Assembly (NCBI GenBank): GCA_023130215.1
Contig: JAGMAN010000001.1
Location: 1-15,685, forward strand
Direction of reading: 5' to 3'
Length of the DNA stretch: 15,685 nucleotides
From: a bacterium
Lineage (GTDB): Bacteria; NPL-UPA2; JAGMAN01
The notes beneath the pieces are model-generated. The model searched no databases and was not told where the DNA came from. It saw only the letters and a list, made by a program, of their open reading frames with translations. Within the stretch, counting starts at the first letter, position 1. Each line of letters begins with the position of its first letter. The position numbers were made by a program, and so were the translations under genes. Shown here piece by piece: positions 1 to 15,256 of the stretch.

Positions 1-67
1 GCTACACCTCTTAATAAAATCGCAACTCCTATATTACAACCCCTTAAGGAATAAGTCAAACAATTTT
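1..67 (-). repeat. Direct repeat R1, copy 1 (promoter-bearing, cut by window edge)
   Basis: This copy matches 2620-2695 base for base except for one 9-bp indel, which is one unit of a tandem TTGCGATTT present twice in the other copy. On the minus strand it holds a promoter-like pair, TTGACT (54-59) and TAATAT (31-36), 17 bp apart. In the second copy the same promoter leads to an ATPase-like start codon, so an ATPase gene probably begins just left of this window. The true length of the repeat is unknown because the window starts inside it. Confidence 0.85.
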
Positions 68-215: not shown

Positions 216-1094
216 TCATTTTAACAACAATGACAAGAATTCATTAACCTGCATATAAGAATCTGTGGCTATACGTTCCCTTTCTTCCTTTGACGCTTCT
301 CTGCTGCCAGCTAAAAAATCTGCCACCCACTGTGGGCCAATAGAATCTTTCGTCTTAAACTTTTCCTGGATATTCTCTATAGATTCATTAACAAGTCTAT
401 TTTTCCTATGAGGTCTTATGGTTTCTGCTGCAGAGCGAAAGCCATCTTTAAAATGCGAAACCATTGAATAAATATCGTAAGCATCTTTCTCACTGTAACG
501 CACACCAAGAACTATGCCCTTCGTAGTTAAAGTGGCAACCAAATCAGCTACCTGTATTTCTATTTCGTTGTAAGCACCTCCAGGCAACTTCCCCTTTAGC
601 CTATACATAAAAAAGTGCTCAAAAACGATGTCTATACCTCTGGCTTTTCTTATAAATAACTCCGATTGGATTATTTGATGGCGCCTTTGCCTTCCTCTGC
701 CACCGTATTCTGGGCCCAAGAAATCAACCTCTATCGGTTGTTTATCTTTATATCCGGGTATCGATATAGCCTTCTCAAAAGCATAGGGTATTGCTCTGCC
801 TTCTTTGTCTAAAGAATGGGTATAGCCGTGTTCTTCTATAAGCTTAAGTATTGACTCGTATTCAACTCCAGAAATCTTTTTTGGATTAACTGCAATATCA
901 ATATCTAAAGAGCCTGCGTGGACAAAATTGTCGTCAGGAGGTTTAAACATTTCAACGATAAAATAAGGTGCCCATCCACCTGCCAAAACAAGCGACTTTC
1001 TATAAGCGCCTAATATAGTCATTATCTCTAAGAGTATAGACTTTGACGCTCCTACAAGCCTGGCATCTAAATCCGCAATTGATCTCCTGGTCAT
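216..1094 (-). CDS. AbiEii-like nucleotidyltransferase, toxin of TA module 1
   Basis: A 292-aa protein with the nucleotidyltransferase fold of AbiEii/MNT-type toxins. The nucleotide-binding Gly-Gly is at residues 39-40, and the metal-binding Asp-Ile-Asp at 64-66 follows a Gly-Ser. A likely third carboxylate is Asp124 (IEVDF), and a late KDAYDIY motif resembles motif IV of the AbiEii family. Family members are type IV toxins that transfer nucleotides, in some cases to tRNA acceptor ends; the substrate here cannot be read. The gene starts 7 nt after the stop of the AbiEi-like gene, with AAGGAAG as ribosome site, so the two form one operon. It differs strongly from the second AbiEii-type protein at 2703-3545 and is not a duplicate of it. 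Toxin role is inferred from fold and pairing. Confidence 0.75.
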   Translation of the reverse strand: MTRRSIADLDARLVGASKSILLEIMTILGAYRKSLVLAGGWAPYFIVEMFKPPDDNFVHAGSLDIDIAVNPKKISGVEYESILKLIEEHGYTHSLDKEGRAIPYAFEKAISIPGYKDKQPIEVDFLGPEYGGRGRQRRHQIIQSELFIRKARGIDIVFEHFFMYRLKGKLPGGAYNEIEIQVADLVATLTTKGIVLGVRYSEKDAYDIYSMVSHFKDGFRSAAETIRPHRKNRLVNESIENIQEKFKTKDSIGPQWVADFLAGSREASKEERERIATDSYMQVNEFLSLLLK

Positions 1095-1101
1095 ATCTTC
1101 C

Positions 1102-2160
1102 TTAAAATTTTATTTTTTCTCTCCTTAAAAATTCAGCCTGTTCTCTGCCTCTGGCAGGATAATTATACAGGTCAAGATAGAGCTGAATATTGCCAACTAT
1201 ATTAATATCATTCACTTTCTGCACTTCATAAAAAACTTCTCCATCATAGGGAATATAAATAGAAATATTACTTCCCGATTCAACCGGGCGCAGATCAAGT
1301 AAACGAATCCATTCAGGAAGATTTTCGCTATTAGAAATATACATCTGCAGACTGGATACCCCCCTGATAAAAGGGGCAACCAAAGAGGCGCCGGATAACA
1401 GTGTGAGGGCATATCTTAAATTTTTATCTTCAGCAAATTGTCTAACCTTCTTGATTAGTTTCCCCAAATTCTGCTCAAAAGAGTAGTAAGCAAACATTTT
1501 ATTTTGGGTATAAGTATAATTCCTCTGCCATTCATCCAAAAGTTTACCTGGTTCAGTTAAAGAATAAAGGCCCCCTTTGTTTTTCTTAAGATATTCCTCA
1601 TCTATAAGCCAGCGGCAGACATTGGAGACCTGACCAAGACTTACTCTGGCAACTTGTGATAGCTCCAATATTTTCCACTTTTTTTTAGGCTCCTCAAGCA
1701 ATACTCTGACAATGCGGCTCGAGATGGGCTTGAATATTGTCTTAATCCTCCTTTTATCAACAAAAGGATTTTTATCTACGATTCTTTCGATATAAATATT
1801 ATTGAATTCCAAATAGCAATTGCCTGCTAAATCCAGATAGCCTATGCCTCCTTTTTTGAGAATCTCTCTTGTCCGTTCCCCTAAGAATGTTGTTATCACG
1901 ACAGGATATACTTTATTTAAATTCGCTAATTTTTCTTTAAATTGGGCGGATATTTCACGAGCCATACGTGGCTGCAAAAGCTCCTTGATTTCGCAAACTA
2001 GAAGCCATTCTTGCCGATTCTGTGTCTTTATCTTAAATGTTAAATCAAAGATCCAGCCGGAAATCTTCTTATCAATCTCTATCTTACCAAGCCTAAGTGT
2101 AGGCAATAAGGAAGGTAGTTCCTTTAAGATCCGCTGTCTTATTTCGTTGGCTTTCATCAT
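1102..2160 (-). CDS. AbiEi-type antitoxin/regulator with PD-(D/E)XK-like N-terminal domain
   Basis: A 352-aa protein, first gene of TA module 1. Residues about 1-130 look like a restriction-endonuclease-like fold: Asp39 (WIFDLTF) followed by Glu57-Ile-Lys59 (LVCEIK) fits the D-x(n)-ExK spacing, then comes a conserved-looking GYLDLAGNCYL stretch. Residues about 145-205 form a winged helix-turn-helix (ILELSQVARVSLGQVSNVCRWL). The C-terminal half is the effector-like domain seen in long AbiEi-family antitoxins. Such proteins repress their own operon and neutralise the nucleotidyltransferase. GGAGAG lies about 12 nt before the ATG, a rather long spacing; a second ATG follows at once. A strong promoter and palindrome lie directly upstream. 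Nuclease activity of the N-terminal domain is a guess; several such domains are only structural. Confidence 0.7.
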   Translation of the reverse strand: MMKANEIRQRILKELPSLLPTLRLGKIEIDKKISGWIFDLTFKIKTQNRQEWLLVCEIKELLQPRMAREISAQFKEKLANLNKVYPVVITTFLGERTREILKKGGIGYLDLAGNCYLEFNNIYIERIVDKNPFVDKRRIKTIFKPISSRIVRVLLEEPKKKWKILELSQVARVSLGQVSNVCRWLIDEEYLKKNKGGLYSLTEPGKLLDEWQRNYTYTQNKMFAYYSFEQNLGKLIKKVRQFAEDKNLRYALTLLSGASLVAPFIRGVSSLQMYISNSENLPEWIRLLDLRPVESGSNISIYIPYDGEVFYEVQKVNDINIVGNIQLYLDLYNYPARGREQAEFLRREKIKF

Positions 2161-2277: not shown

Positions 2278-2489
2278 TCAGCCTTCTGGTGGGACTAAGG
2301 GGGCTACGGTCATAATCTTTTTAGCCTGCTCTGGATACTTAGCAATGAACTTTAACTCATCATTAGTGAGTGGCTTTTGAGTATGGACATTAGCATAGCG
2401 AGTTAACTCTAAGATTTTGGTTGCTTCCTCATCATCCTTAAATTCTATCTCCAGCTTATCATAAACATTTCTAAATCCTTTGATTCCTC
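2278..2489 (-). pseudogene. Displaced 3' tail of the acyltransferase gene
   Basis: These 212 bp align with 4601-4812, the last 70 codons and stop of the intact acyltransferase gene. There are 9 differences: 8 fall on third codon positions and are synonymous, one changes Arg to Lys, and there is no frameshift. Homology starts exactly at the stop codon and ends near 2489, where the sequence becomes the start of an ATPase-like gene. The fragment has no start codon or promoter of its own in frame. The pattern of change means both tails diverged while they were still coding. Confidence 0.9.
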
Positions 2490-2567
2490 TCTGCTCTTTA
2501 AATCTTCTCTCCCAGCAAAGTCTTGGGGACTTACGGGATTGTTGGAGTCATATGGATTTACAACCAT
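2490..2567 (-). pseudogene. 5' fragment of an AAA/ATPase-like gene, cut after 26 codons
   Basis: An ATG at 2565-2567 with a strong GGAGG ribosome site opens a frame containing NPYDSNNPVSPQDFAGRED. That resembles the N-terminal signature (NPYxxxxPVxxxxFxGRE) placed before the P-loop in many stand-alone bacterial and archaeal ATPases. After about 26 codons the sequence switches to the acyltransferase tail in the wrong frame, and the chimeric frame ends at a TAG at 2445-2447 (40 aa). No Walker motif is left. The intact gene is predicted to lie left of the window, behind repeat R1 copy 1. Family assignment rests on a short motif only. Confidence 0.6.
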
Positions 2568-2619: not shown

Positions 2620-2695
2620 GCTACACCTCTTAATAAAATCGCAAAAATCGCAACTCCTATATTACAACCCCTTAAGGAATAAGTCAAACAATTTT
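2620..2695 (-). repeat. Direct repeat R1, copy 2 (leader of the truncated ATPase gene)
   Basis: Second copy of the repeat at 1-67. It holds the -35/-10 pair and start of the 5' leader for the truncated ATPase-like gene, and begins about 8 bp beyond the stop codon of the AbiEii gene at 2703. It carries a tandem pair of TTGCGATTT units; the first copy has one. Further TTGCGAT/TTGCGAC motifs continue downstream at 2608-2614 and 2590-2596. Confidence 0.85.
2659..2687 (-). promoter_or_regulatory. Promoter for the truncated ATPase-like gene
   Basis: TTGACT (2682-2687) and TAATAT (2659-2664) are spaced 17 bp apart on the minus strand. The leader to the ATG at 2567 would be about 85 nt and contains four TTGCGAT/C motifs. 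Confidence 0.5.
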
Positions 2696-2702
2696 GATAC
2701 TG

Positions 2703-3545
2703 TCAAGAAATGAATAATCCTGCCTGTCTAAGTTCTCGCTGTACTGCTCGATAAACCCGGCTGAATTCCGGAAGTGCTGTCATTTGAGAAGTAAGACGCA
2801 GATTCCAAAGTTTTTCTAAGCGCGCTTCTTTCCGTAGAAACGTTTCCCTTATGTCAATCACTTTTTCACCCCGGAACCTCCACTTCTGCTCAATGGCTTC
2901 AACCAACCCGGATAGATTGACATATTGATTGTAAGTCAGGTGCCATATATCATAAAGATCCCGAGGCTCATTCCGCGCTCTATCCAGGAGAGCAACTACT
3001 TTTTCAACAGCTATCTCATCGAGGGAATAGACACAAACAGTTACATCGTCAGGCAGATCTTCGTATTCCTTGTATCCCTTGAGAACTATTCTCTCTTTAA
3101 TTGGGAAAACAATTTTTTCTCGTACTGTAATATCTATCTTGACTTCCTTACCGGAAACGCCGGGTAAAGGACCTTCATATCCCAGAAAAAAAGTATAGCT
3201 GTTTTCATGAGTATGGCGGTCATAACGGCTAAAATGCAGCTTGATGCCTGAGTCTTGCTGTATCCGACTAAAGGCAACATCAAGATCCTTTTGAATGTTC
3301 TCAAAAGGAAATTTCTCTACGAGCGTGAAATCAAGGTCTTCTGAAAAACGATATTCAGGGATATAGCATTTCTTGATGGCTGTCCCTCCTTTGAATACGA
3401 GAATATCCTTAAGCAGACTATAGGATAACCCTATTAAAAACCAGGAGAGGCAATAATCACGTTCAAGGACTGCCTCCGGAATACGCCGCCCTTTTTCTCG
3501 GGCGAGCCGATTGGACAATAACGAAAGATTGCGCTGGGGTATCAT
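2703..3545 (-). CDS. AbiEii/AbiGii-family nucleotidyltransferase toxin, module 2
   Basis: A 280-aa protein with all motifs of the canonical AbiEii family. Motif I is GGT at 53-55 with Lys58, then RFSEDLDF (66-73) with the two metal-binding Asp at 70 and 72. Asp138 in KIDITVRE is the likely third carboxylate. The late motif EIAVEKVVALLDRARNEPRDLYD spans about 177-199. These enzymes are the toxins of type IV TA and phage-abortive-infection systems and transfer nucleotides to RNA targets. The gene starts 3 nt after the stop of the AbiEi gene, implying translational coupling. Length is slightly below the usual ~300 aa but nothing essential is missing. Repeat R1 begins within 10 bp of its stop codon. 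Confidence 0.9.
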   Translation of the reverse strand: MIPQRNLSLLSNRLAREKGRRIPEAVLERDYCLSWFLIGLSYSLLKDILVFKGGTAIKKCYIPEYRFSEDLDFTLVEKFPFENIQKDLDVAFSRIQQDSGIKLHFSRYDRHTHENSYTFFLGYEGPLPGVSGKEVKIDITVREKIVFPIKERIVLKGYKEYEDLPDDVTVCVYSLDEIAVEKVVALLDRARNEPRDLYDIWHLTYNQYVNLSGLVEAIEQKWRFRGEKVIDIRETFLRKEARLEKLWNLRLTSQMTALPEFSRVYRAVQRELRQAGLFIS

Positions 3546-3548
3546 TGA

Positions 3549-4385
3549 TTATGTCCTTACCGCATATAGAAGTTCTTCAGGAGAGACATTAAGCTTAAGT
3601 CTCCATTTACGCAGGAATTTTCCCTCAGATGGTAAAAGAGGGTCTAACCGCACATAAGTTTCCGTCAAATATGGACGAAGGAGTTCACAATCTTTAGAAG
3701 TGCCTATTTTATAAAGCTCAAGTAAAAACCCGAGCCTGCGGATAACAGCGCCTACATCACTCTTCACTGCATATTTGATAAGCCGGCTTATATTCATATC
3801 CTGATGACGTATCCAGAGTCCCTTAGCCACCTCTGTCAGGCCGCCGCAATATTCCGGATGCTTAAGGCCGCCGATGATTGTTCGTTCAAGGTCACTGACC
3901 CTTACTTTTTCCTGTTTGGTTGCCCAATAGTCACTCAGACCAAAGAAAAGTTTTTTTTGACTATGAATAAATCGAAACTCAACACCAAGCGTGTTAACGG
4001 GCCTGCGTGGTTTTAAAGTTGTTACATAGACAACCAATTGAGGTTGAGTAACCATTCCATGAATTTCCATAGCTGTCCCATGAGAGAGATAGTAAGCCTT
4101 TCCGCCCATAATCTCACGAGCTGCAATGAGCGGATTTCCTATATATTCACATTCCTTTCCCATCTCAAACGGGACCAGGATGAAAAGCCCTGGTTTCAAG
4201 CGTGTAACGACTCCTCTGTTCACAAGCTTGCGGACAAAATTACGGGAGGAGGCTTCGTCTAAATGAAGGATTTTCTGTACCTCTTTCAGTCGAAACACAG
4301 GTTTATTTTGCTCATAAAGCGTGGTAACCAAATGAGCGGCCCGAGGTCCTAATGTTTTTAGTTTATCATTATTGTTATAACGCAT
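3549..4385 (-). CDS. AbiEi-family antitoxin and transcriptional repressor, module 2
   Basis: A 278-aa protein of the classical AbiEi type. An N-terminal winged helix-turn-helix (about 15-72, including VFRLKEVQKILHLDEASSRN and RLKPGLFIL) is followed by the AbiEi C-terminal domain with YYLSHGTAMEIHG (98-110). In characterised systems the N-terminal domain binds operator repeats and the C-terminal domain blocks the AbiEii toxin. It is the first gene of a two-gene operon, 3 nt before the toxin. The start is supported by GAAGGA six bases upstream; this ribosome site sits inside a palindrome that probably is the operator. It is unrelated in architecture to the longer AbiEi-like protein of module 1. 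Confidence 0.88.
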   Translation of the reverse strand: MRYNNNDKLKTLGPRAAHLVTTLYEQNKPVFRLKEVQKILHLDEASSRNFVRKLVNRGVVTRLKPGLFILVPFEMGKECEYIGNPLIAAREIMGGKAYYLSHGTAMEIHGMVTQPQLVVYVTTLKPRRPVNTLGVEFRFIHSQKKLFFGLSDYWATKQEKVRVSDLERTIIGGLKHPEYCGGLTEVAKGLWIRHQDMNISRLIKYAVKSDVGAVIRRLGFLLELYKIGTSKDCELLRPYLTETYVRLDPLLPSEGKFLRKWRLKLNVSPEELLYAVRT

Positions 4386-4434: not shown

Positions 4435-4529
4435 GGGGAGTTCGCCATTTTTTTCTGAAGAACCAAATCGATTTTTTCAGTTTGTCGTCGGGGGAGCCAA
4501 GCTCGGGGTTGGTGGAAACCAATAGGGCG

Positions 4530-4560
4530 ATTTGTCTTTCTTTCCCAACAGTGAGACAAA
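4530..4560 (-). other. Stem-loop downstream of the acyltransferase gene
   Basis: ATTTGTCT and AGACAAAT form an 8-bp perfect stem around a 16-nt loop, about 40 bp past the acyltransferase stop. No T-run follows on either strand, so it is not a typical intrinsic terminator. Confidence 0.3.
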
Positions 4561-4600
4561 TTGGTCCATAATGCCACAGTTAACGCCAACAAACTCATTC

Positions 4601-5851
4601 TCAGCCTTCCGGTGGGACTAAGGGGGCTACGGTCATAATCTTTTTAGCCTGCTCTGGATACTTAGCAATGAACTTTAACTCATCATTAGTGAGTGGCTTT
4701 TGAGTATGGACATTAGCATAGCGAGTTAACTCTAAGATTCTGGTTGCTTCCTCATCATCTTTAAACTCTATCTCCAGTTTATCGTAAACATTTCTAAACC
4801 CCTTAATTCCTCCGTATTCTCCCACAGTTATCTTTCGACCGCTCTCCACTATCTCCGGCTCTCCCCTTCCTAACTCCTCGAAGTCGTAAAGTTCATAGTT
4901 GCGCCTATCTTTCAAAGCTCCATCAGCATGGATGCCGGATTCATGGGCAAAAGCATTCTCCCCTACCCCAACCTGATTTATGGGAATGGGAACTCCGAAG
5001 GCATAACCTGCATATTGGGCAATCTTCCACGCCTTGGCTAAGTCCACTCTCTCATCAAGAACATATTTATCCTGGTGGAAACCACTGGATTTCTTGATGG
5101 CTAAGATGACTGAGACAAGGTCTGCGTTTCCGGCCCTCTCCCCCATTCCGTTAAGGGCGGTATTTACATAGGCATCCACTCCTCCGTCAATAGCTCCCTT
5201 CGCTCCAGCCACTGAACAAGCCACCGCCATCCCCAAGTCATTGTGACAGTGAAGCTCTATGGGAATCTGGACCTCCTCTGCTAACATCTTCACTCTCTGG
5301 TAAATGGTAAAGGGGTCATCGTAACCAAGAGTATCGCAGTATCGGAACATAGCCGCTCCATGCTCTTTGGCGGCTTTAGCAAATCTCACCAAATACTCGT
5401 CATCGGTTCGGGAGGCATCCTCAGCATTGACTCCAACAGTCTCCGCCCCCAACTCTTTAGCTTTCTCCAATACCTCAACCATCATCTTGAGAACATCCTC
5501 CCTGGTCTTCCGCCCCTGAAATTTCCCGTTAGTCATCTGTTCTGAAGTGGAGATGGAAAGATTTATGTGCTTTATCTTCGTCAACCTGAAGGAGTTCTCC
5601 ACTTCCTTAAGTATAACCGGGCACCAGCCTTCCAGGCACATGGGCTTAATTACTCCCATCTCAGCTAATTCTAAATTGGCATTGATGTAGTTTATCTCAT
5701 GATGAGTGTAAGGGAAGCCAAGTTCGCTCTGAAATACCCCCATCTCATTGAGGAAGATGTTTATCATGGTCTTCTCTAATTTAGCTAATCCCAACCGGGA
5801 AGTCTGCACTCCGTCCCGATTGGTAACATCAATAATATAGATTTTGTTCAT
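4601..5851 (-). CDS. DRE-TIM acyltransferase (homocitrate synthase / Re-citrate synthase type)
   Basis: A 416-aa member of the HMGL-like acetyl-CoA-dependent acyltransferases. Visible active-site elements are Asp8 with Arg12-Asp13 (DVTNRDGVQ), Glu43, the metal-binding His201-x-His203 (ELHCHNDLG) and GMGERAGN (235-242). The family condenses acetyl-CoA with a 2-oxo acid. This branch, with [15 protein letters not shown] and [11 protein letters not shown], is usually labelled homocitrate synthase, but a Dehalococcoides protein so labelled was shown to be a Re-citrate synthase; oxaloacetate is therefore a serious alternative to 2-oxoglutarate. It lacks the C-terminal regulatory domain of 2-isopropylmalate synthase. 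Its start overlaps the serA stop by 4 bp, so the two are translationally coupled. The last 70 codons are duplicated at 2278-2489. No symbol is given because the substrate is uncertain. Confidence 0.85.
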
Positions 5852-7428
5852 AGTTTGGCTAACCTCACTTCCAGGATTTCTTTTATCTTCTCTATCTCCT
5901 TTAATGTTTTCTCCGGGACAGAGTTGTCCAGGTTAAGCACAGTTACTTCCCTGCCCCCTCTCTCCTTCCGACCTAAAGTCATGGCGGCAATATTTATCTT
6001 TTGGGTGCCAAGGATAGTTCCTATCTTTCCGATGATTCCTGGTTTATCCTCATGGGCACAGACGAGCATGTAGCCAGCCGGAACAGCATCCAGGTGGTAG
6101 CCATTTAGCCGAACGATCCTGGGGTCACTGCGCCCGAAAAGGGTCCCGGCCACCGATCCCCTTGCCTGAGGCGTCTCAACTTCAAGGGAGATGAGGTTAG
6201 CAAAATCTTCTAAGCGCTCACTCTTTGCTTCCATCACTTCTATCTCCCTCTCCCTGGCAATGAGGCGAGCATTAACGTAATTGACCCTTTCGCCCAGGAC
6301 GGATTCGAGCAATCCCTTGAGAATGGTCAGGGTTACTGGTGCTAAATCGTATTCGGTGACCTCTCCGCTGTACTTTATCCACACCTTCAGGATGCGACCC
6401 TTGAGCAGTTGAGCCTCAAGGCATCCGAGTTTCTCAGCCAAGCTGAGGTAAGGTTTTATCTCGTCATAGATTTCCGGCTCAATGGAGGGGACATTGACCG
6501 CATTGCGAATAGTCTTTCCCTTGAGAGCATCCACTACCTGATGGGCAATCTCAATAGCTACCCTCCTCTGTGCCTCCTTTGTGGATGCTCCAAGATGAGG
6601 GGTGAGGACTAAATTGTCCAATTCCATCAAGGGACTATTAAAAGGCGGTTCCTCCTCATAGACATCCAGAGCTCCGCCAGTCACCTTCCCACTCTTCATG
6701 GCTTCATAGAGAGCTTTCTCGTCAATAATCCCCCCCCGGGCACAGTTGATGATTTTCACCCCATCCTTCATCAACTTAAATTCCTCCGGTCCAATCAGAT
6801 GTTTGGTCTCATCAGTGAAGGGAGTATGAACAGTAATATAGTCTGCCTGTCCGAGAAGCTCTTTCAACTCTACCAGTTTCACTTCCAATCTCTTTGCCCT
6901 TTCCGGCGAGAGGAACGGATCGCAGGCAATGATCTGCATCCCCATGACCTGTGCTCTCTTAGCCACTTCCCCTCCAATCCTTCCTAAGCCGATTATGCCC
7001 AGGACCTTCCCGTAGACTTCCACCCCCATAAACTTCTTCCGTTCCCACTTCTTCTGTTTGAGAGACAGATAGGCCTGAGGAATATTACGCGACAGGGAAA
7101 GGAGCAAAGCCACCGTATGCTCAGCCGTGGAAATGGTATTGGCCCCCGGGCTGTTCATAACGATTACTCCCTTCTCAGTAGCCGCCTCTACATCCACATT
7201 GTCAACTCCTACTCCAGCCCGGCCAATTACTTTGAGACTGCTGCCAGCCTGTATTAGCTCCGTAGTTACATTAGTCCCGCTTCTCACAATAAGAGCATCG
7301 GCATCTTTTATTCTTTTCTTCAACTCGTCAGTGGAAAGTTTTGTGGCAACCTTTACCTCTATATCTTTTTCCTTCTTTAAAATCTCAAGTCCTTCTTCAG
7401 AAAGAGGGTCACTGACCAGAACCTTCAT
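5848..7428 (-). CDS. serA: D-3-phosphoglycerate dehydrogenase, long form
   Basis: A 526-aa protein of the long SerA type, which oxidises 3-phosphoglycerate to 3-phosphohydroxypyruvate with NAD+, the first step of serine synthesis. The nucleotide-binding GLGRIG is at 147-152. The catalytic set is Arg231 (CARGG), Glu at 258-260 (YEEEPP) and His278 (TPHLGAST). Residues about 315-445 match the intervening (ASB) domain and about 452-526 form an ACT domain ([16 protein letters not shown]), the usual site of serine feedback control. The start is backed by AAGGAGAGC. It lies downstream of hicA, separated by a hairpin, and overlaps the acyltransferase gene by 4 bp. With the class V aminotransferase upstream, it would supply two consecutive serine-pathway steps. 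Confidence 0.96.
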
Positions 7429-7519: not shown

Positions 7520-7702
7520 CTATCCTGATAATCCTAAATATTTCTTGATATGCTTTGCTAAATCATTGTCAATCTCCGTATGGCGCGGAACAGGTTGCTT
7601 TTGTCTGGTTACCGGATTTATATAAATATCGTGATTAGCTCCTGGTCTCAAGTAAACGCATCCTGCTTTCGTCAGCTGACGAATAAGCTCTTTGCGTTTC
7701 AT
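7520..7702 (-). CDS. hicA: HicA-family mRNA interferase toxin
   Basis: A 60-aa protein with the compact double-stranded-RNA-binding-like fold of HicA. The N-terminal helix (KRKELIRQLTKAGC) is followed by the signature RPGANHDIY; His24 is the expected catalytic residue. HicA toxins cut mRNA and are neutralised by HicB. The start codon overlaps the hicB stop (4 bp), so expression is coupled. The order is antitoxin first, the less common of the two hic arrangements. The pair sits between the aminotransferase gene and serA, so it interrupts what looks like a serine-synthesis operon. An attC-like hairpin begins at its stop codon. Confidence 0.9.
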   Translation of the reverse strand: MKRKELIRQLTKAGCVYLRPGANHDIYINPVTRQKQPVPRHTEIDNDLAKHIKKYLGLSG

Positions 7703-7890
7703 ACAGCTATCTCTTTCACCTGGTGTTCTTCTGGAACCTCATCCATAGCCATTGACATATAGGCGTCCTTGATATTTTCTTCAAGTTCTTCTATTGTTTC
7801 TCCTTGAGTCATTATCTCTGGATGCTCCAGAATCTTACCAATCCAAAACTTGTCTCCCTTCCAATATACCATAGTCATTTTGCTATACAT
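7699..7890 (-). CDS. hicB: HicB-family antitoxin, short form
   Basis: A 63-aa protein containing the HicB partial RNase H-like fold: a strand with YWKGDKFWIGKILEHPEIMTQGETIEELEENIKDA, then a helix with AMDEVPEE. Short HicB proteins like this one lack the C-terminal helix-turn-helix or ribbon-helix-helix, so autorepression may be absent or indirect. AGGAGGT seven bases before the ATG fixes the start. It follows the aminotransferase stop by 21 nt and overlaps hicA by 4 bp. Confidence 0.88.
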   Translation of the reverse strand: MYSKMTMVYWKGDKFWIGKILEHPEIMTQGETIEELEENIKDAYMSMAMDEVPEEHQVKEIAV

Positions 7891-11271: not shown

Positions 11272-11344
11272 TACCCCCACCAGGGCTCGAACCTGGGACA
11301 CCCTGATTAAGAGTCAGGTGCTCTTCCAACTGAGCTATGGGGGC
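11272..11344 (-). tRNA. tRNA-Lys (anticodon CTT)
   Basis: A 73-nt cloverleaf: acceptor GCCCCCA/TGGGGGT (first pair G-U), anticodon stem CCTGA/TCAGG with loop CTCTTAA, T-arm CAGGTTCGAGCCCTG, discriminator A. Its 5' half is copied at 14394-14433, which makes it the likely integration target of the island to its right. Confidence 0.94.
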
Positions 11345-11379
11345 AACTGTTTATATATCAATGACTTATGATTCCTAAT

Positions 11380-14393: not shown

Positions 14394-14433
14394 GATTAAG
14401 AGTCAGGTGCTCTTCCAACTGAGCTGTGGGGGC
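14394..14433 (-). pseudogene. tRNA-Lys 5'-half fragment (attachment-site-like)
   Basis: Forty bases match the first 40 nt of the intact tRNA-Lys at 11305-11344 with one mismatch, in the same orientation, ending in the anticodon loop. No tRNA 3' half follows. A displaced tRNA half in direct orientation is the usual scar of an integrative element; the pair would bound an island of about 3.1 kb. Confidence 0.85.
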
Positions 14434-14473
14434 AAGTCTATCATATTGGATATTTAGATGGAATAATGTTTGG

Positions 14474-15256
14474 TCAAAATGTCCAGACAGGAGTACTGCC
14501 TACACTTAAAAGTTTGCCTTTACGATTTAATGCTTTTAGTTCTGCGATAATTATCTGCCAATAAATCCTGTCTTGCTGCCTGAATTTTTCAATTTCAAGA
14601 GCAATCGCGTTTGAGACAGAAGAAAAATTATTTTGCAACGCATACTTTAGACATTTCCTTGAAAGTTTCTTACAAACTTTTCTGGCATCTCGATGGTTTT
14701 TAAGATAAAATAATATATCTTCCGTTTCAAAACTATTAGTCAGGATCCATACCCAGTCTTCATCTTTTATAACACTTGCACGCATTTTCTCATATTCTTG
14801 CCTGACCAAATTCGAGATTATTGGATAATCTGTCAGCCGTCTTGTCTTTTTTATCTGAACCAAATCCCTCAGGCCAATAGTTGCGATTTTACCCCATTCT
14901 GTTTTGCAGAAATTGACATTCTTATAGGCCGCCTGAAAAGACCCTACTCTGGGAACGACACCCATAACATCCAGAAACCAAATGGGGTCCTCCTGCTCTG
15001 TAGAGGGAACCTCAAAGTGATAACCATGGCCATTTTGAATAAAATCAAATTTTATAGGCGGGGTAACCTTGTATATCTTTGCCTTCGATTTGCGCAGGCA
15101 GTCTATAAACTTTTTCCAATTTTCCGGCTCAGGAGAAATCCAGAGATCAATATCTTCTGAAAAGGTTGCCGCTCCATACAAGACAGTTGCCTGTCCGCTA
15201 ATAAGTAAATATTTTATATTATTGCGAGTAAGGTGTAGGAAAAATTTTTTTATCAT
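14474..15256 (-). CDS. Nucleotidyltransferase-fold protein, third TA-like enzyme
   Basis: A 260-aa protein with the nucleotidyltransferase core common in MNT/AbiEii-like genes: ISGQATVLYG (19-28), then FSEDIDLWI with Asp35 and Asp37, and a probable third carboxylate at Asp96 (WFLDVMG). The motif GLRDLVQIKKTRRLTDY follows, where such proteins keep conserved Lys/Arg. It shares little with the other two nucleotidyltransferases in the window. It overlaps by 38 bp with a 58-aa ORF upstream, implying a coupled two-gene unit. The ribosome site is weak (AAGAG), as expected for a coupled gene. Whether it is a toxin or a silent nucleotidyltransferase relative cannot be told from sequence. Confidence 0.8.
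   Translation of the reverse strand: MIKKFFLHLTRNNIKYLLISGQATVLYGAATFSEDIDLWISPEPENWKKFIDCLRKSKAKIYKVTPPIKFDFIQNGHGYHFEVPSTEQEDPIWFLDVMGVVPRVGSFQAAYKNVNFCKTEWGKIATIGLRDLVQIKKTRRLTDYPIISNLVRQEYEKMRASVIKDEDWVWILTNSFETEDILFYLKNHRDARKVCKKLSRKCLKYALQNNFSSVSNAIALEIEKFRQQDRIYWQIIIAELKALNRKGKLLSVGSTPVWTF

Follow-up and report, generated by a model that had tools for sequence, protein, structure and literature searches.

The window analysed here is a stretch of 15,685 nucleotides that forms one contig (C1) of a 1.01-Mb draft metagenome assembly in 136 contigs. The 3′ end of a metabolic gene occurs in it twice, once on the intact gene and once as an orphan that has no gene body and lies between two AbiE-type toxin–antitoxin (TA) pairs. 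The locus raises the question of how a gene tail came to stand among TA genes, and whether the differences between the two tails record where each of them evolved.

Anatomy of the duplicated gene end

The tails are 212 bp each and 96% identical, and they are the sole ungapped direct repeat longer than 52 bp in the window. The positions of the tails and of the surrounding features are collected in Table 1. The preliminary description called the gene an acyltransferase, a fair label for an HMGL-like protein with a homocitrate-synthase second domain. Read in the direction of this gene, the order is the gene, an 82-bp galactokinase (galK) scrap, the end of an insertion sequence (IS), AbiE pair B, the D2 leader followed by the beginning of an ATPase-like ORF, the orphan tail, AbiE pair A, a second D2 copy, and the end of the contig. 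The upstream end of the orphan tail is fused to the start of the unrelated ORF.

Table 1 Features of the window that bear on the duplicated tail, in order of position
Feature	Position	Strand	Evidence or remark
Second copy of D2, at the contig terminus behind module A	1..67	-	
Module A partner ORF, presumed nucleotidyltransferase	216..1094	-	weak NTP_transf_8, E = 0.05
Module A antitoxin, AbiEi_2-type	1102..2160	-	PF09952 3e-10
Tail copy 2, the orphan 3′ end without gene body	2278..2489	-	repeat comparison
Same-lineage block of tail copy 2 (tail positions 54-212)	2278..2436	-	2 differences from copy 1
Putative breakpoint interval in copy 2, between tail positions 53 and 71	2419..2437 (copy 1: 4742-4760)	-	53 private to copy 2; 71 private to copies 1 and 2
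Diverged block of tail copy 2 (tail positions 1-53)	2437..2489	-	7 silent differences from copy 1
ATPase-like ORF 5′ end (MVVNPYDSNNPVSPQDFAGREDLKS...), runs out of frame into tail copy 2	2448..2567	-	no Pfam match
D2 repeat behind module B; resembles a leader or promoter and precedes the ATPase-like ORF	2620..2695	-	
Module B toxin, AbiEii-like nucleotidyltransferase	2703..3545	-	PF08843 9e-40; PADLOC AbiEii 8e-76
Module B antitoxin, AbiEi-like	3549..4385	-	PF09407; PADLOC AbiEi 8e-76
IS-end remnant, 76 bp	4455..4530	.	83% identical to a transposase-element terminus (C66:1-76)
Galactokinase fragment, 82 bp	4531..4612	-	96% identical to full galK at C11:1428-1509
Tail copy 1, 3′ end of the functional gene	4601..4812	-	repeat comparison
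Intact HMGL-like / homocitrate-isopropylmalate synthase-like gene, 416 aa	4601..5851	-	PF00682 + PF22617; best NCBIfam TIGR02660, below its cut-off
serA, preceding the acyltransferase gene	5848-7428		

The sister genomes, Nitrospirota bacterium CSMAG_2268 (G001) and candidate division NPL-UPA2 bacterium MAG-914 (G002), belong to other species and carry the acyltransferase gene without a second tail. No second tail copy was found at 80 loci of related genes. A weak, partly masked sample of about 142 kb of the genome itself held no further fragment duplications of this kind outside C1 and contig C11. ComEC is present in the genome.

Contig C11 begins with a third tail copy of 129 bp (C11:1-129). 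It departs from the tail at a different point and continues into a Phd-like antitoxin gene, galK, and a pyruvate dehydrogenase (PDH) gene, the last two identified by eye from their translations. In G002, PDH directly follows the acyltransferase gene, and C11 2723-5073 aligns to that genome at 89%. The G001 gene has behind it an ORF that was taken, by eye, for ribose-phosphate pyrophosphokinase. The differing downstream neighbors indicate that the space behind the gene varies in the genus. Because PDH directly follows the gene in G002, C11 looks like the older downstream neighbor of the gene. Any link from the left end of the window to C11 would lie across an assembly gap.

Clustered differences and the ancestry of the tail

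Alignment of copies 1 and 2 bore out the count in the preliminary description: nine differences in 212 bp, eight of them at silent third positions and one an AGA/AAA (Arg/Lys) exchange. All nine are transitions. Silent changes at eight or more of nine sites exceed chance (P = 0.0013, transitions placed at random sites of the tail sequence). Numbered along the tail in the 5′ to 3′ direction of the gene, the differences fall at positions 8, 11, 14, 29, 35, 47, 53, 73, and 203. Seven are in positions 1-53 (7/53, 13%, all silent) compared to two in positions 54-212 (2/159), with a Fisher P of 0.001 that is optimistic because the split at 53 was picked after the data and the alleles of the relatives had been viewed. 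A statistic that needs no split is the longest difference-free run between the copies. Its length of 129 bp has a permutation P of 0.0016 when all sites are used and of 0.0002 for third positions. This block, at 2288-2416 in the same-lineage part of copy 2, is identical in all three tail copies. On this clustering, a single-history reading of all nine differences was rejected.

The changes were polarized with outgroup states from G001, G002, and G003, the last presumed to be the next relative, NPL-UPA2 bacterium Unc8. In positions 1-53, copy 1 and copy 2 differ at seven sites, copy 1 and G001 at four, and copy 2 and G001 at three, so each copy is closer to that sister species than to the other copy. 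Changes have occurred on both sides, at positions 14 and 29 in the gene and at 11, 53, and probably 8 in the orphan; positions 35 and 47 carry alleles shared with one sister or another. All are silent and stand at the level of between-species divergence. The copies do not group here and every difference is silent, and both versions therefore evolved under selection in separate functional genes.

Positions 54-212 differ between the copies at two sites versus 12-14 against the other genomes. At positions 71, 87, 110, 122, and 125, copies 1 and 2 share alleles that are absent from all three relatives. Both residual differences, at 73 (the Arg) and 203, are changes on the functional gene. Bootstrap analysis made the two copies mutual nearest neighbors in 0% of replicates for positions 1-53 versus 99.4% for positions 54-212. 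By these alleles the 3′ block is evidently a recent copy in which both differences, the amino acid change included, arose on the functional copy. The orphan tail, or else the gene, is thus a mosaic of two parents, and the breakpoint lies between tail positions 53 and 71. The preliminary description held that the tails had diverged in separate functional genes and should each group with a different lineage. When both tails were compared with related genomes, this view stood for the first 53 bp, where the copies fall apart and all changes are silent, but failed for the remaining 159 bp, where they group together to the exclusion of all other genomes. Silent-difference counts can mislead when they span the full length of a mosaic duplicate.

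The further proposal, that an AbiE cargo brought one of the tails in with it, is plausible. The gene body could equally be the foreign part, brought in afterwards by ordinary recombination. When the gene body was compared with G001 and G002 in sliding windows, no obvious switch was seen; with two genomes this comparison has little power.

Toxin–antitoxin modules and the DNA between them

Module B is predicted from its domains to be an AbiE type IV system, with an AbiEi antitoxin adjacent to an AbiEii nucleotidyltransferase. The module A antitoxin belongs to an AbiEi antitoxin family (PF09952), and its partner ORF had no AbiEii-family match at threshold in Pfam or PADLOC. Phage and plasmid origins of the cargo were considered and rejected; the module A antitoxin is without a match in phage records, and those listed among plasmids reach at most about 32% identity. 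Viral contigs gave no match to a 41-base stretch of the tail. A second AbiEi_2-type gene lies near the IS on C66 (4189-5235) and is 39% identical to the module A antitoxin.

Other parts of the window also carry TA-like genes. A HicA-like toxin ORF with a small upstream partner (7520-7890) lies between serA and an aminotransferase gene, so the window holds several TA-type loci. The 5′ half of a tRNA-Lys(CTT), up to the anticodon loop, is duplicated at 14394-14435 and 11305-11346 (41/42 bases). Between the two copies is a 3-kb stretch with a DUF2283 gene, a 503-residue ORF, and an MqsA-like antitoxin gene. A 260-residue nucleotidyltransferase-like ORF (14474-15256) with sub-threshold similarity to AbiEii adjoins the tRNA fragment. 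The tRNA piece is a second partial duplicate beside TA cargo in the window, and the displaced part is the 5′ half, not the usual 3′ half.

The spacers consist of scraps. The galK piece is internal to that gene and is joined to the acyltransferase gene end at a 12-bp microhomology, CCAGAAGGCTGA, at about 4601-4612. galK and the ancestral form of the gene end share this microhomology, in which copy 1 itself carries CCG in place of CCA. Such a joint is what a deletion or an illegitimate joint leaves. The ORF start fused to the orphan tail resembles that of an ATPase; a search of the genome with its first 40 residues found no intact copy. The two D2 copies are 88% identical over 76 bp with one 9-bp indel. 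When other copies of the spacer sequence were sought, only the window itself matched. The leader at 2620-2695 has several TTGCGA/TTTGCGA words and is possibly an operator array. A promoter-like stretch at 107-171 (TTGACA...TATAAT) recurs at four places in G001 (C104, C21, C87, and C69) with 76-92% identity.

Candidate routes to the orphan tail

We put at about an even chance the reading that the orphan tail is the scar of an insertion of TA-bearing DNA directly behind the acyltransferase gene by homology-anchored recombination. Homology in the gene's end would have let incoming foreign or strain-variant DNA recombine with the resident gene, and the other end of that DNA would have joined with little or no homology, an illegitimate joint. 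The old gene end and the older AbiE module would have been displaced downstream. The same event probably took place at least one time earlier, leaving the third tail copy before the Phd-like gene and galK on C11. The mosaic tail is the homologous junction expected of homology-facilitated illegitimate recombination. Candidates for the other junction are the gene/galK joint at its 12-bp microhomology and the ATPase/tail joint. A two-parent mosaic makes general homologous recombination likelier than site-specific integration. The single-crossover version of this insertion has a real weakness. A simple single crossover between diverged tails would yield copies that differ from end to end, and a conversion tract or an already mosaic donor must therefore be added. 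The homologous crossover and the illegitimate joint are both read from one draft metagenome assembly.

The same blocks would also arise if a local duplication came first and ordinary homologous recombination later swapped the body of the gene, together with tail positions 1-53, for an allele of another lineage, in which case the AbiE cargo need not have carried a tail. This accounts directly for a near-identical 3′ block of 159 bp beside a diverged but silent 5′ block, and for the location of both residual 3′-block differences on the functional copy. We consider it unlikely, as it leaves unexplained the galK, IS-end, and ATPase-start scraps and the two different AbiE pairs between and beside the tails, and the switch that it would place in the gene body is not obvious in the low-powered comparison with G001 and G002. 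An assembly artefact or a mixture of strains is an improbable source of similar rank. Strains with the arrangements gene–C11, gene–AbiE A, and a galK–AbiE B unit would share the exact 129-bp block, and their arms would have been misjoined. Three right-hand arms (the galK scrap, AbiE A, and C11) but only two left-hand arms do meet at exactly this block, the terminus of C11 falls on the base just inside the difference at tail position 73, and the window contig ends inside another repeat, D2. Short reads can misjoin arms, and the draft is fragmented into its 136 contigs. The 5′ and 3′ blocks of copy 2 join upstream of the 129-bp block, however, where there is no long shared repeat, so the mosaic is not easily a chimaera. 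The 9-bp indel likewise marks the D2 copies as two real sequences. The module order, unlike the copy 2 mosaic, depends on the arms of the 129-bp block.

A site-specific island would be an integrase-borne element that carries the gene 3′ end to serve as attachment site and restores the gene when it inserts, with the AbiE pairs as cargo. The locus has the icd/icdC anatomy of a duplicated 3′ end, mostly silent differences, and an intact gene, but we find this route very unlikely. There is no integrase in the window and no PF00589 match on its contig; such matches sit on other contigs, two of them near full length, and the distal end of the unit is off the contig. The units carry galK and IS scraps, and a site-specific crossover alone would not yield a 159-bp block of the same lineage.

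An extension of homology-anchored insertion would make the gene end a serial docking site at which TA units were stacked by homologous recombination into a tandem array, which seems doubtful to us. It is no less doubtful that each unit would end in the same leader/ATPase start plus a copy of the gene tail. The corresponding order, gene – AbiE B – spacer – AbiE A – spacer – Phd-like TA, is likewise put forward with considerable reserve. If the docking-site reading were true, the locus would be an integrase-free cassette array whose units could also be lost by recombination between spacers. If the array is real, an uncultured phylum offers a case of TA pairs accumulating behind a housekeeping gene with no integrase involved.

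An orphan gene tail with silent differences is a scar from which DNA import can be read, and here two parents are resolved within 212 bp. The scar in NPL-UPA2 is of a kind of event already known in other bacteria, here in a poorly known phylum. In the orphan immunity-gene arrays of the Vibrio cholerae T6SS, modules were added successively behind a conserved gene, and older modules with the older effector 3′ end were pushed downstream; homology-facilitated illegitimate recombination is the proposed mechanism (Sci Rep 2017, PMC5361080). The present locus likewise has modules behind a conserved gene and, on the insertion reading, an older 3′ end shifted downstream, but the displaced gene is an effector in V. 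cholerae and a housekeeping metabolic gene here, with modules of the AbiE type. Insertion of the cryptic prophage e14 in icd of E. coli K-12 left a 165-bp duplicate (icdC) with 12 exchanges and two conservative replacements (PMC11148124). Both cases have a duplicate of a metabolic gene 3′ end, mostly silent exchanges, a position on the far side of imported DNA, and an intact gene product, but e14 is an integrase-carrying prophage, whereas no integrase is seen in the window and the duplicate is a mosaic. In E. coli conjugation at lacZ, both homology-facilitated illegitimate recombination and single crossovers are described, and the crossovers duplicated 109-950 bp of the gene end (PMC3240628). 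These products share with our locus one homologous junction at a gene end and a partial duplication of that end, but they come from laboratory constructs without a second lineage or serial insertion.
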